NCBI GenBank assembly: GCA_020832415.1
Contig: JAFIES010000002.1
Coordinates: 1 to 47,330, forward strand
DNA from: Balneolaceae bacterium
Lineage (GTDB): Bacteria; Bacteroidota; Rhodothermia; Balneolales; Balneolaceae
Direction: 5' to 3'
Length of the DNA stretch: 47,330 nt
Numbering within the stretch: position 1 is the stretch's first letter; each line of letters starts with the position of its first letter. Under the pieces are notes generated by a model. That model was given only the letters and a program-made list of their open reading frames with translations. It was not told where the DNA came from and did no database searches. Below are positions 42,033 to 47,330 of the stretch, piece by piece. The position numbers and the translations under genes are program-made.

Positions 42033-42815
42033 ATGAGTGATTCACACAGAACACTGTATGATGAAATCAAAGATTTCCTGGAAGCTGAGCGGCAGGTGTA
42101 TGGTGAATTTTCCGTACCCGAACTGAAAGAAATTCATGATGAGGAAGCCACAGTAGTGACCCCTGATGTGGCCGAGGAAGAAAATGTACGGTACGAAGTC
42201 TCCTCCTTAGAACCTGAAGTTGAAAAAACAACGGAAGAGAAAATAGGCTCCTGCAATACACTTGAAGAGCTTCGGGAATTGTGTGGCCAAGCTGAAGAGC
42301 TCAAAACAGATCTTGAAAATACAAATCTTGTATTTGGTGTAGGAAACCCCAAAGCCGATCTGATGCTGATTGGTGAAGCACCCGGAGAGCAGGAAGATAT
42401 CCGGGGAGAACCGTTTGTTGGAGCCGCCGGAAGATTACTCAATAAAATACTTGCTGCGATCAGGTTTGAAAGAAGTGATATCTATATAGCCAATATCCTG
42501 AAACACCGCCCGCCCGGAAACAGAAACCCAAATCCGGAAGAGTGCAAAAACAGTCTGCCCTATCTCTATCGCCAAATAGAACTTATTGACCCAAAAATTA
42601 TCTTATGTCTTGGAAAAATTTCAGGGAATACGATGCTGGGCGGCGAAAATACTCTTAAAAGTATGAGGAGCAAAAAGCACAACTTTAGGGGAATTGAACT
42701 CTATGTGACCTATCACCCTGCGGCGCTGCTTCGAAATCCCCAGTGGAAACGGCCCACCTGGGAAGATGTTCAACTGGTACGTAAACGGTATGATGAGCTT
42801 GGCGGAAAGCCTTAA
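42033..42815 (+). CDS. Uracil-DNA glycosylase family 4-like protein, apparently without the Fe-S cluster
   Basis: This 260-residue protein removes uracil from DNA, if active. It has the family 4 motifs GEAPGEQED and PFVGAAGRLLNKIL, ILKHRPPGNRNP, and YHPAALLRNP near the end. Family 4 enzymes bind [4Fe-4S] by four Cys: CxxC before the first motif, the Cys in K-C-RPP, and one more before the next helix. Here the first pair is C84-G-Q-A87, the third position is His158 (KHRPP), and the fourth is displaced (C171 a few residues early). So the cluster is probably lost. An acidic N-terminal extension of about 75 residues precedes it. It ends 1 bp from the convergent GH17 gene. Confidence 0.88.
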   Translation: MSDSHRTLYDEIKDFLEAERQVYGEFSVPELKEIHDEEATVVTPDVAEEENVRYEVSSLEPEVEKTTEEKIGSCNTLEELRELCGQAEELKTDLENTNLVFGVGNPKADLMLIGEAPGEQEDIRGEPFVGAAGRLLNKILAAIRFERSDIYIANILKHRPPGNRNPNPEECKNSLPYLYRQIELIDPKIILCLGKISGNTMLGGENTLKSMRSKKHNFRGIELYVTYHPAALLRNPQWKRPTWEDVQLVRKRYDELGGKP

Positions 42816-42816
42816 A

Positions 42817-43746
42817 TCAAACTTTTTGATACTTTCGCATCACAAGCTTCGGGGTTCTGTCAACCTTATAAATTCCCCAGTGTTTTTCCGGCTCAAGAGG
42901 TTCGGTCGACCCTTTCCACGGTTCATCAAACGCTTCAAAGAAAAATGTGAGGATATTTTCTTCTTCCACCCAGGCCATCAGCTTTTCAAAATAGATTTTT
43001 TGATAGAGTTCATTCACATTTTCCGGGTTGATACCCCGCCCGTTCGAGTTGGTAGCCCAACCTGCTTCCGTAATAATCACCGGCTTGTTGGGATATTTAT
43101 CACCAACGGAATAGTAGTTCTCTTTGGTGTATTCAAGGGCCTCATCAATATGTTTGTACTCCCAAACCGGATAGGTATGCACAGAGATAAAATCGAGCTC
43201 GTGAGCTAAATTCTCCAGTTTAAAATGCCAGGGTTCATAGTTCTCACAAAAGGTTACCGGCTGATTTGCTTCTGCCTTCACCTGGTTTGCATACTCAATC
43301 ACTTTGTTTTCGTGAACATAATGATCTGTCCACCCCACACAGGCTTCATTTCCAACAGAGAGAGAAAAGATGATATCCGAATATCTATTGGCAAGTTCAA
43401 TCAGTTTTTTAATCTTATTCCGATTCAGTTCGGTGTTTTTTTCAAGATCATCTTCTGAATAAACACCTCCCCAGGGACAATTGAAATTGTTCATCTCTGC
43501 TTCAATAAATGCTCCCAGCATGATCTTAAAGTCCAGATTTTCATTCTCAATCACATCAAGAGTGGTGATTGTATGCAAGTCACAATCGTACATCCTCAGA
43601 TATTTGAAATCCGGCCTTAAGATCATAAGATCTTCTTTTACTTCTTCATACGAGGGATAATTTTCACCCGGAACCTGCCCTTCTCTGAAGCCGGAGTAGC
43701 AAATTGCCCTGCCAGGCTCAATCCCTAAAGTTTTGAATGTATCCAT
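42817..43746 (-). CDS. GH17-family beta-1,3-glucanase-like protein (cytoplasmic)
   Basis: This 309-residue TIM-barrel glycosidase has the GH17 acid/base Glu in SLSVGNEACVG and the nucleophile Glu in IITEAGWATN. GH17 enzymes hydrolyse or transfer beta-1,3-glucan chains such as laminarin. There is no signal peptide, so it should act in the cytoplasm on imported oligosaccharides. It is only distantly similar to the upstream GH17. Its ATG overlaps the stop codon of that gene by one base (TAATG), so the two are coupled. Confidence 0.88.
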   Translation of the reverse strand: MDTFKTLGIEPGRAICYSGFREGQVPGENYPSYEEVKEDLMILRPDFKYLRMYDCDLHTITTLDVIENENLDFKIMLGAFIEAEMNNFNCPWGGVYSEDDLEKNTELNRNKIKKLIELANRYSDIIFSLSVGNEACVGWTDHYVHENKVIEYANQVKAEANQPVTFCENYEPWHFKLENLAHELDFISVHTYPVWEYKHIDEALEYTKENYYSVGDKYPNKPVIITEAGWATNSNGRGINPENVNELYQKIYFEKLMAWVEEENILTFFFEAFDEPWKGSTEPLEPEKHWGIYKVDRTPKLVMRKYQKV

Positions 43747-44654
43747 TACCCAAACTTCAGTTTACCTTTACTATCCCATACGCCCCAGTATGCACCTACT
43801 TCACCTTCTGCATCCACTTTCCAGGCTTCATCGAACGATGAGAAATAGAAGGTTTCAATATTATTCTCTACAGCCCACAGATGCGTATTTATAAAATATT
43901 TCTTTGCATTTTTGTAAGAAGGATTTGCACCTCCCAAACCTTCGCCTTTGCTTGGCCATCCGGTTTCAGTAATTACAACACGCTTGCCTTTACCCGCATC
44001 AATACCGAGCTGATACATATGACGCATGTGGTCAAACGAATATTCGAACGGAGTACCTTCCCAATAAGGGTAGCAATTACATAGAATTAAATCACATAAA
44101 TCAGATAATTGTGGTCGCTGAACAAACTCATAATAGGCATCCACGTAACCTACGGGGATATCCGGCAATTGTGTTTTTACTTCTTCAATGTATTTAAGCA
44201 ATTGATCTTCTGTAAGATCATCTCTGTATAGTACTTCATTCCCAACTGCAGCAATATCTACAAATCCTTTATCTGCAAGTTTAATAAGGCCATCAATCTC
44301 TTCACGATTTTTTTCAAGGTCATCACTTAACCACGCGCCAACCAACGTTTTCATGCCAAACTGTTTGGCAACTTTGGGAATCCATTCGTTCCCTTCTGTA
44401 CATGAAAATGAGCGAATCCATTTCGTGTGAGGTGCCAAAATCTCCATTCTTCGGCGAATCTGCTCTTCTGATATGATATCACCCGGCTGCTGCCCCTCTT
44501 CATACAGACTGAAACAAAATCCATGTACGCCTCTGTTTAATACGTCAAGAAAAATACTCTTGAGTTCATCTTCGGACATACTTTTTAGCGAATTGATCTG
44601 TTCCGGTGTATTTGTCCCCTTATAGCTTAAAAATTTTTCTGATCTGAAAGACAT
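43746..44654 (-). CDS. GH17-family beta-1,3-glucanase-like protein (cytoplasmic), paralogue of the fusion's GH17 domain
   Basis: This 302-residue protein has the acid/base Glu in AVGNEVLYR and the nucleophile Glu in VVITETGWPSKGEG. Across its length it is close to the GH17 domain of the transporter fusion (shared HGFCFS, EGQ, APxTKWIRSFSCT, GNEWIP, LKTLVGAW-type strings). No signal peptide is seen. A local duplication is likely. The terminator of the lipoprotein gene lies just upstream, so this gene pair has its own promoter in the 44655-44730 stretch. Confidence 0.88.
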   Translation of the reverse strand: MSFRSEKFLSYKGTNTPEQINSLKSMSEDELKSIFLDVLNRGVHGFCFSLYEEGQQPGDIISEEQIRRRMEILAPHTKWIRSFSCTEGNEWIPKVAKQFGMKTLVGAWLSDDLEKNREEIDGLIKLADKGFVDIAAVGNEVLYRDDLTEDQLLKYIEEVKTQLPDIPVGYVDAYYEFVQRPQLSDLCDLILCNCYPYWEGTPFEYSFDHMRHMYQLGIDAGKGKRVVITETGWPSKGEGLGGANPSYKNAKKYFINTHLWAVENNIETFYFSSFDEAWKVDAEGEVGAYWGVWDSKGKLKFG

Positions 44655-44821: not shown

Positions 44822-45436
44822 TTACTGCTTGATAAATCTGAAGTACCAGGTTGCTTCGTCTACATCAGGATTCCATCCATCGATTCTGATCTCAAGTGTT
44901 TCATCGTTATCAGACAGCTCATAGGTATATGTGATGCGATTATTGGCAGGATTTCCATCTTCACCACCATTATGTACTTTGGGTAGTCCCAAAAATACGC
45001 CTTCACCTTCAATAGTTACTGAATTATTTAACGTTGACCAATCTCCAACAGTGCTTCCATCATGCGGAGCAACAGGTGCACCACAGCCTTCTGCATCAAC
45101 TCCTTGCCATTCTTCTAACCAGGTTTCCTCACCTAATACGTTTTGGAATGATCCATCATCGCCAAACACGTATTGATCTTCGTATAAGCAAGCTCTGTTT
45201 TCTACGTCACCTGAACTAATTGACCACCAGGACAGATCTGTAGCTGTAGGACCTACTGCAAGTGAACCTGCGGTTGGATCAAGAACCCAGGTGCCTACCA
45301 GTGCAGGATCTAGTTCTTCTGTTGGATCTGGATCCGGATCGGGGTCTGGATCTATGATAGATACACTATCATCACTACACGCACTAAGCGCGAACATTAT
45401 ACTCACTAATATGAGTAAGAATTTATTTGTTTTCAT
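44822..45436 (-). CDS. Lipoprotein of the beta-glucan locus
   Basis: This 204-residue protein has a lipoprotein signal (lipobox LSACS), then a Asp-Pro repeat linker (DPDPDPDPDP), then a beta-rich domain of about 160 residues with LVGTWVLDP, SWWS, RACLYEDQYVF and ETWLEEWQGV. Similar domains occur as stand-alone lipoproteins or as C-terminal parts in polysaccharide loci of marine Bacteroidetes, so glucan binding at the cell surface is a reasonable guess. It is placed between the cytoplasmic GH17 genes and the transporter fusion, as expected for a capture protein. Confidence 0.78.
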   Translation of the reverse strand: MKTNKFLLILVSIMFALSACSDDSVSIIDPDPDPDPDPTEELDPALVGTWVLDPTAGSLAVGPTATDLSWWSISSGDVENRACLYEDQYVFGDDGSFQNVLGEETWLEEWQGVDAEGCGAPVAPHDGSTVGDWSTLNNSVTIEGEGVFLGLPKVHNGGEDGNPANNRITYTYELSDNDETLEIRIDGWNPDVDEATWYFRFIKQ

Positions 45437-45623
45437 GATTTTATCTTTGTTTTTGTTTTGGGTTTTATTTATTAGTTAAGAAACTGTATTTATTATTTTT
45501 ACAATTTCTTTGCTTCTCATAACTCACCTCTTCGGCGAACAAGTTCTTTTTGAATTTCTTCTGATTCTTGGGACAGTATCAGACTTTTGAAAATTGGAAA
45601 GTTGTTCTTTTCTAAAAGACATT
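45437..45623. other. Gap between the lipoprotein and transporter-GH17 genes
   Basis: A 187-bp gap with no supported gene. It must hold the promoter of the lipoprotein gene on the minus strand or link it to the transporter fusion. No clear terminator hairpin is seen after the fusion gene, so readthrough from the fusion into the lipoprotein gene is possible. Confidence 0.4.
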
Positions 45624-47330
45624 TTAATTCACTTTTAGTTGTTCATTTTTATTCCAAAGACCCCATCTGGCACCAACATCACCTTCATGGCGGGCTTTCC
45701 AGGATTCGTCAAATGATGCGAAGTAGAAAACTTCAACTTCTTCTTGCTCACTCCATTTTTTCAATCGAATGAAATACTTCATCATATTTTCAACGGAAGG
45801 TTCGGCCTGATCAACGCTTCTACCATAGGTTGGCCAGCCGGTTTCTGCGATGATCACTTTCTTGTCACCAGCAAAATTATTTATCACCTCATACATCTTT
45901 GCCAAATAGAGGGATGAATGTTCGGCATCGTAGCCTTCCCAAAATGGATAACAATTGGCAAGTACAACATCACATGCTTTAATCACTTTTGGGCTGAGAT
46001 GGAGTTGATAATATGTATCCACGTAACTAACCATTACTCCGGGTAACGCCTCTTTTACCTGTTGGATGTACGCAACGATCTCATCCTCACTCAGTTCATT
46101 TCTGAGCAGACATTCGTTACCAACGGTGACGATATCTGCATGACCTGCTTTGGCTACCTTAATTAGATTTTTAATCTCTGTTTCATTTGCTTCCAGGTTG
46201 TTATCAATCCAGGCTCCAACCAAGGTTTTTAATCCCATTTGTTTGGCAATTTCGGGGATCCACTCATTACCATCTGTACAGGAGAATGAACGGATCCATT
46301 TAGTATACGGAGCCACCACCTTCATTCTTTTCTCTATTTGTTTTCTTGAAAGCTGATCTCCCAGGTTTTGGCCTTCCAGGTAAGGACTGAAACAGAAGCC
46401 ATGAATACCGCTGTTCAGCGACTCTTTAAAGCTTCTTTTTAATTTACTATTGCTGAGTTTGTTGATTTCAGATGCGATAACTTCCACTTCGGAATCGACA
46501 GAGGTCATAGAGAGCAAACGGTCTTTTTGGTAAGAATAAGGTACAGCAACTGCATCTTTTTCTGCTTTTCGGGCATCTAAGATCACCCGGACATCATTCG
46601 CTTTCTCTTCGGTTACGTCATAGTCTCGCATTACCCAAAGTGCCACCAATGTTCCAAACATGGGTAAAGCCGAGAAGAATAATCTCAATCCCGTGATTGC
46701 CCCTTCAGGCTGAACAGACAGATTACCATCAAAACCCACTACGGTAAGAATGACCCCGCTTAATCCACCGGCTATCGCAAAACCAAACTTCACCATATAC
46801 CAGTAAATCGCACCGAATATTCCCTCCCTCCGTTTTCCGTAATTGAGTTCATCTATATCAATTACATCAGCTGTCATCGACATCATCAACACAAACAGAC
46901 TGCCGATCCCGAATGAGTGAAATGGTAAGGCCAGCAAGAACATCCATGGTTTTCCGGGAACAAAAAGGAACCACAAACTCGCATACCCAAACAGTGCTAT
47001 TGTTTGAGCTATCATGAATGCTCTTTTCTTGCCAAGTACTCTTGACATACGAGCTACAATAGGGATTACCAAAAATGTGGTCACCAGTGCACCGACGCTA
47101 CCAAAGAGAGGGATCCAAATGCCTGCTTCGCCTGCGTCTCCGCCAAACATATACCATACAACAATGAAGAAAACAAACCCGGCAACGGTGTTAAAGGCAT
47201 TAAAAATGAAAAAGGTAGCAATACAGAGCTTTCTGAATGGGGTTAACGATAATGCCTCCTTGAACCCTCTGACGATTTCTTTGAGGCTCCGCTTAACGTT
47301 GTTCAGTGTCAGCGATTCATAATCTTCATT
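45624..47330 (-). CDS. GPH/MelB-type sugar transporter fused to GH17 beta-1,3-glucanase (5' partial)
   Basis: The frame is open to the right edge, so the N terminus is outside the window. From the edge inward it reads a soluble loop, then transmembrane segments (IATFFIFNAFNTVAGFVFFIV and others), with sugar-transporter strings such as MSMTADVIDIDELNYGKRREGIFGA and RDYDVTE, which are typical of the GPH (MelB-like) family. A linker of about 60 residues leads to a complete GH17 domain, with acid/base Glu in TVGNECLLR and nucleophile Glu in IIAETGWPT. The transporter's C terminus normally faces the cytoplasm, so the GH17 domain would too. It likely imports and cuts beta-1,3-gluco-oligosaccharides. 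The stated frame keeps no stop between the parts, so this is not an assembly split. Confidence 0.9.
   Translation of the reverse strand, partial: NEDYESLTLNNVKRSLKEIVRGFKEALSLTPFRKLCIATFFIFNAFNTVAGFVFFIVVWYMFGGDAGEAGIWIPLFGSVGALVTTFLVIPIVARMSRVLGKKRAFMIAQTIALFGYASLWFLFVPGKPWMFLLALPFHSFGIGSLFVLMMSMTADVIDIDELNYGKRREGIFGAIYWYMVKFGFAIAGGLSGVILTVVGFDGNLSVQPEGAITGLRLFFSALPMFGTLVALWVMRDYDVTEEKANDVRVILDARKAEKDAVAVPYSYQKDRLLSMTSVDSEVEVIASEINKLSNSKLKRSFKESLNSGIHGFCFSPYLEGQNLGDQLSRKQIEKRMKVVAPYTKWIRSFSCTDGNEWIPEIAKQMGLKTLVGAWIDNNLEANETEIKNLIKVAKAGHADIVTVGNECLLRNELSEDEIVAYIQQVKEALPGVMVSYVDTYYQLHLSPKVIKACDVVLANCYPFWEGYDAEHSSLYLAKMYEVINNFAGDKKVIIAETGWPTYGRSVDQAEPSVENMMKYFIRLKKWSEQEEVEVFYFASFDESWKARHEGDVGARWGLWNKNEQLKVN

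Follow-up and report, generated by a model that had tools for sequence, protein, structure and literature searches.

Organization of the locus

The window, meaning the whole stretch of 47,330 nucleotides that was analysed, is contig C145 of its genome. At its right-hand end lies the 3' part of a gene that joins a GPH-type transporter to a GH17 domain, and further GH17 genes lie behind it. The features are as follows.

45624..47330, reverse strand: 3' portion of the GPH transporter-GH17 fusion gene, 568 codons out of 783, truncated by the contig end
46629..47330, reverse strand: GPH (MFS_2) transporter, C-terminal half: central cytoplasmic loop and TM7-TM12 (PF13347; helices from homologues)
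46413..46628, reverse strand: C-terminal helix and variable linker, TM12 to the GH17 barrel (limits approximate)
45627..46412, reverse strand: catalytic GH17 domain (residues 522-783 in full-length numbering; boundary approximate)
46113..46115, reverse strand: codon of the acid/base Glu (E621; Glu133 in MlGH17B numbering)
46104..46106, reverse strand: Leu codon at the place of MlGH17B Tyr136 (acceptor platform)
45843..45845, reverse strand: codon of the nucleophile Glu (E711)
44822..45436, reverse strand: lipoprotein-like ORF, 204 aa, located between fusion and stand-alone GH17 and containing an Asp-Pro repeat
43746..44654, reverse strand: stand-alone GH17, 302 aa, Pro50/Tyr136 signature (MlGH17B type), no signal peptide by eye
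42817..43746, reverse strand: third, distant GH17, 309 aa (Pfam 26.9, just under the cut-off of 28.2), no signal peptide by eye

The frame at 45624-47330 encodes 568 amino acids without an internal stop and is open at the contig edge. The transporter comes first and GH17 last in one polypeptide, which is the domain order of FbGH17B. A transporter running without a stop into GH17 was the central claim of the preliminary description, and it was confirmed by this open frame and by the whole gene, a single frame of 783-785 aa, in eight other congeneric genomes (28 genomes searched, including the window's own). The window portion begins at residue 216 of 783, so half of the transporter is absent from the window. 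Reading the gene beyond the right edge recovered its start on a second contig of this genome, again at the contig end (G000:C46:3-641); its translation is 100% identical to residues 1-213 of a full-length homologue in genome G021. About two codons (214-215) fall outside both contigs. Because the fusion gene is broken across C46 and C145, we infer that the two contigs adjoin. The best match of the fusion protein in named genomes is from a Balneolaceae MAG (L005, 93% identity), and 4/5 next-best matches are also labelled Balneolaceae, which makes a Balneolaceae genome probable. The transporter-GH17 fusion is thus genuine, and proteins of this kind have been described before. Other frames, about 790-1121 aa long and listed with stops or, in five genomes (G472, G481, G487, G522 and G565), without them, resembled split fusions or three-domain proteins; they were rejected when the ORFs showed separate neighbouring genes.

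Gene neighbourhood

In the direction of transcription C46 carries a GH149 β-1,3-glucan phosphorylase (NF058639, 1730.7 bits, cut-off 1150), a 429 aa GH17 with a lipoprotein-like start by eye, and the start of the fusion. C145 carries the rest of the fusion, the lipoprotein-like ORF, the stand-alone GH17 and the third GH17, in that order. GH30 is absent between the GH17 lipoprotein and the fusion in this genome. The stand-alone GH17 at 43746-44654 possesses Pro50, Tyr136, Trp191 and Glu192. No Pfam or NCBIfam match was obtained for the 204 aa ORF, which is a tentative member of the locus. Among 80 homologous loci, counted with score limits set in this analysis and with near-copies still included, GH149 occurs in 65 and the GH17 lipoprotein in 71; 74 have a stand-alone GH17 and 44 a GH30. 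GH17_3 (13 loci) and a regulator (3 loci) were left out of the argument. The corresponding numbers for the 48 loci longer than 17 kb are 46 (GH149), 47 (GH17 lipoprotein), 45 (stand-alone GH17) and 27 (GH30). Clusters in which GH149 is accompanied by a GH17 in the cytoplasm and a pfam13347 transporter in the inner membrane are reported, mainly from Alteromonadales (PMC5827456). The gene neighbourhood is of the laminarin type, with stand-alone GH17 genes next door and GH149 on C46.

The spacing of these genes differs between genomes. The fusion and the stand-alone GH17 are one base apart in G001 (L096), whereas in the window the 204 aa ORF intervenes. Right behind the fusion stop the window has an ATG and a frame of 32 codons (45524-45622, reverse strand) that is similar to the beginning of G001's stand-alone GH17 but is cut short; the window's intact stand-alone GH17 gene begins about 870 bases past it. 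On the opposite strand a family 4 uracil-DNA glycosylase (42033-42815, forward) adjoins the locus.

Domain composition and predicted topology

Pfam MFS_2 (PF13347) matched residues 17-241 of the window fragment with 115.9 bits (cut-off 27) and the full homologue in L096 with 221.6 bits. Glyco_hydro_17 (PF00332) matched residues 489-566 of the fragment with 45.9 bits (cut-off 28.2). The assignment to MFS/GPH and GH17 made from the sequence therefore stood for these two profiles, but the curated GPH cut-off of TIGR00792 (231.35) was reached neither by the fragment (103.5) nor by L133 (180.8). The domain had also been called complete, with both catalytic Glu residues in place. Both residues are present in the window, as in 106/106 fused domains, but the Pfam match is confined to the end of the profile (positions 223-301 of 306). 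The barrel is called complete because residues 520-783 of an AlphaFold model of the close homologue L006 align with the Rhizomucor GH17 4wtp (252 residues, rmsd 2.0, Z 30.7).

The L006 model has a mean pLDDT of 86.2 and a pTM of 0.60, with unreliable mutual placement of the domains. It has 12 long membrane helices in the first 450 residues, and its transporter part aligns with inward-facing MelB (Z 36.0) and MFSD2A (Z 36.6). The model was computed with an alignment of 52 fused homologues, chosen from 74 at <90% identity, all of which align across the junction. Asp62 and Asp66, which we take to be positions with a role in MelB, are invariant in the 52 homologues, and the linker between transporter and GH17 is variable. 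The transporter part is GPH-type (MFS_2, 12 helices), and cation-coupled sugar transport is predicted for it.

Loop charges were counted in the same homologues, with helix limits set by hand from hydropathy and the family pattern. Inner loops hold 25-35 Lys and Arg residues and outer loops 1-5, in 52/52 homologues. The helix number is even and the N terminus is charged and of the cytoplasmic type. The loop charges lead to the prediction that the fused GH17 lies on the cytoplasmic side, and the cytoplasmic glucanase of the preliminary description thus holds as a prediction.

Fused and stand-alone GH17 domains

Loci gathered by similarity to the window's protein yielded 360 GH17 domains that passed limits set here, repeats from overlapping loci included. 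Removal of domains identical over the last 250 residues left 263, of which 106 are fused and 157 stand-alone. Both catalytic Glu residues are present in all 263. Pro50 and Tyr136 (MlGH17B numbering) are both lost in 98/106 fused domains versus 0/157 stand-alone domains, counts that do not represent independent events. Pro50 is kept in 156/157 stand-alone and 8/106 fused domains, Tyr136 in 145/157 and 6/106, and both residues in 6/106 fused domains. Tyr136 was found in 0/85, 0/80 unique and 2/91 of the fused domains nearest the query, and wider sampling gave the 6/106. Trp191 and Glu192 are kept in 106/106 fused domains. Three stand-alone proteins of 294-295 aa (L040, L074 and L052) have all 21 quoted MlGH17B residues at the same numbering. 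Most of the 21 also occur in fused domains; the diagnostic ones are Pro50 and Tyr136. The fused domain of the window, with Leu at position 136, no Pro50, and Trp191 and Glu192 kept, lacks the full MlGH17B-type set (Tyr136, Trp191 and Glu192) that the stand-alone GH17 next door possesses. The two are 47% identical and belong to the same subfamily.

A GH17 tree of 165 rows (the 263 domains thinned at 80% identity, sampled without FbGH17B and MlGH17B) was built by a quick search that left 63/162 inner branches open. It requires two changes between fused and stand-alone. A branch with 99% SH-aLRT support places 90 stand-alone rows and one fused row (L125) on one side and 74 fused rows on the other. 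For the domains sampled, the fused domain is shown by residues and tree to be of another GH17 lineage than the MlGH17B-type enzyme next door, and the result suggests that the attached GH17 forms a separate lineage. Six fused rows that retain Pro50, five of them carrying Tyr136 and one Phe, group apart from the rest (99%), and this separate grouping suggests that the residue change may postdate the fusion.

A few rows are less settled. L151 falls beside the stand-alone clade in one tree and within the Pro50 fused group in the 165-row tree, and the branch of L229 is very long. L125 is the gene also seen as L133:5381-7843, and it was found in one genome. This 820 aa ORF on the reverse strand combines a clade A transporter with a Tyr136-type GH17 that has its own Met behind a linker of about 44 residues. 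Translation may start internally at this Met. The ORF is possibly an independent fusion, or else two genes read as one.

Transporters and distribution of the fusion

Among 173 unique transporter sequences, clade A was delimited by a score limit set here and is supported as a clade in the tree; it comprises 106 fused and 29 unfused members. Clade B has 3 fused and 35 unfused members, one of the 35 a distant outlier. A 56-row transporter tree (LG+G4) requires 11 changes between fused and unfused states, and a 76-row mixture-model tree requires 9, of which starred branches force at least 8; long-branch warnings apply to both trees. That the fused GH17 lineage stays fused while transporters vary fits exchange or loss at the junction. 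Stand-alone GH17 lies within 300 bases of 18/29 unfused clade A genes, and none was found within this distance of the other 11/29, for which short stretches were available.

Other arrangements also occur. Fusions of 815-855 aa on a clade B transporter occur in L157, L158 and L229, the first two with about 45-50 extra residues between helices 9 and 10. Two clade B GPH transporters lie near one such locus with separate GH17 genes in L099. One clade A and one clade B GPH transporter, again with separate GH17 genes, are found in each of L218, L221 and L222.

The fused gene is present in 16/92 genomes of the window's family, a count that takes in the window's own broken gene and the doubtful genome G058. 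It is present in 15/249 genomes of family f28 (two of these on a clade B transporter, one truncated at a contig edge) and in 11/98 genomes of family f36 (one cut); genomes without a fetched locus were judged from match tables. The preliminary description mentioned similar fusions from the literature, correctly, and considered them rare. These counts do not support rarity, nor does the published statement that the same architecture, seen in Formosa (FbGH17B), is common among marine Flavobacteriia (Unfried et al. 2018, PMC6246565). A search of a limited literature collection produced no further fitting fusion of a transporter and a glycoside hydrolase in one polypeptide, and the words 'fusion' and 'fused' are absent from the available text of PMC6298971 and PMC11345257.

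A proposed role for the fusion

Laminarin represents a large store of carbon, and carrying an enzyme on the importer itself is an unusual way to use it. Taken together, the analyses make it quite probable that the window protein is a relative of the FbGH17B-type fusion that imports laminari-oligosaccharides and trims them in the cytoplasm. The GH17 lipoprotein would cut β-1,3-glucan to oligosaccharides outside the inner membrane, and the 12-helix GPH symporter, judging from its family, would carry them through that membrane. The GH17 domain, predicted on the cytoplasmic side, would trim them as they emerge, probably by exo-type hydrolysis releasing glucose, as reported for FbGH17B. The GH149 phosphorylase and the stand-alone GH17 enzymes would process the remainder in the cytoplasm. 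The substrate, the direction of transport, hydrolysis rather than transfer, and the coupling of import to hydrolysis are all parts of this scheme that we infer.

It is possible, though somewhat doubtful, that the fusion merely anchors the enzyme or fixes a 1:1 ratio while transport and cleavage are kinetically uncoupled. Transporters of the same clade also occur without the domain (29 unfused versus 106 fused unique sequences), most of them (18/29) with a stand-alone GH17 within 300 bases, and the linker is variable. Against this, the fused GH17 lineage was not found unfused in the 165-row tree apart from its two changes, the basal split and one added fusion. This result suggests that the linkage is important to the enzyme. 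What the fusion does could be tested directly on fused and unfused transporters that occur naturally within one clade.

A second alternative, which we regard as unlikely, is that the fused GH17 acts as a β-1,3-glucanosyltransglycosylase, as MlGH17B does, and remodels the oligosaccharides after import instead of hydrolysing them. It shares a subfamily and 47% identity with the stand-alone GH17 next door, two of the three transfer residues (Trp191 and Glu192) are kept in 106/106 fused domains, and PMC11005184 leaves room for an undetected transfer activity of FbGH17B. However, the third position, 136, is Leu in the window and other than Tyr in 100/106 fused domains, and the Tyr102Ala change in a fungal enzyme abolished transfer (Qin et al. 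2015, cited in PMC11005184). FbGH17B itself is reported to make glucose from oligosaccharides, in assays with debranched laminarin and FbGH17A products (PMC6246565).

The wording of Unfried et al. raises the question of whether GH17 might instead be periplasmic and release glucose there for uptake by the transporter. They write of 'product uptake', a wording closer to hydrolysis preceding transport, and the available text does not name the membrane side of GH17 (PMC6246565). A periplasmic GH17 is very improbable given the loop charges in 52/52 homologues, the even helix count and the charged N terminus of cytoplasmic type. The related stand-alone GH17 has no leader by eye, and MlGH17B is predicted to be cytoplasmic by its authors (PMC13188888).

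Loss of a stop between two genes in assembly or sequencing has practically no chance of being the explanation: the gene ends at a contig edge, and in several relatives separate neighbouring genes would look like a single one once stops are disregarded, but the eight congeneric fused genes and the 52 homologues aligned across the junction rule it out.

Are FbGH17B and MlGH17B paralogues?

FbGH17B and the transglycosylase MlGH17B are 53% identical and occupy the same locus position, yet they give different products (PMC11005184, PMC13188888). Tyr136, Trp191 and Glu192 of MlGH17B are named as needed for transfer (PMC11005184). The residue split between fused and stand-alone domains, together with two changes in the GH17 tree versus 9 and 11 in the transporter trees, indicates that fused FbGH17B and MlGH17B are probably paralogues. 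On balance we lean towards a fuller version of this reading, in which the fusion GH17 would be a lineage existing only as the cytoplasmic tail of an importer, would have lost Pro50 and Tyr136 with or after fusion, and would have become joined to two GPH clades, FbGH17B and MlGH17B being paralogues. In the limited collection of literature available the two are nowhere called paralogues and are compared as homologues at the same locus position. If true, paralogy would explain their differing products, and it offers a testable answer to the puzzle in PMC11005184 and PMC13188888 that FbGH17B frees glucose while MlGH17B transfers chains. Loci with both GH17 types side by side, like that of the window, allow direct tests of the enzymes' roles.

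Comparison with known systems

The window fusion extends the known fusions of marine laminarin eaters to another bacterial family. FbGH17B and MlGH17B were compared with it through quoted residues and descriptions. FbGH17B (FORMB_24740 of Formosa sp. Hel1_33_131) likewise has a 12-helix MFS transporter at the N terminus and GH17 at the C terminus, in a laminarin locus with another GH17 (PMC6246565). Tyr136 is replaced in both, by Met in FbGH17B (PMC11005184) and by Leu in the window fusion. The relatives of the window fusion are Balneolaceae (phylum Balneolota in the NCBI taxonomy), and not Flavobacteriia. Unlike at the FbGH17B locus, GH30 is missing from the interval separating the GH17 lipoprotein and the fusion, and stand-alone GH17 genes follow.

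MlGH17B of Muricauda lutaonensis, with Pro50, Tyr136, Trp191, Glu192 and no signal peptide, resembles the stand-alone GH17 at 43746-44654. It is a transglycosylase encoded by a separate gene, (PMC11005184), whereas in the window's fused domain both Pro50 and Tyr136 are missing. MelB and MFSD2A share the transporter fold of the fusion but have no enzyme domain and carry other substrates. RmBgt17A of Rhizomucor miehei (PDB 4WTP) has the same GH17 barrel, but it is an unfused transglycosylase from a fungus and has Tyr where the window fusion has Leu.
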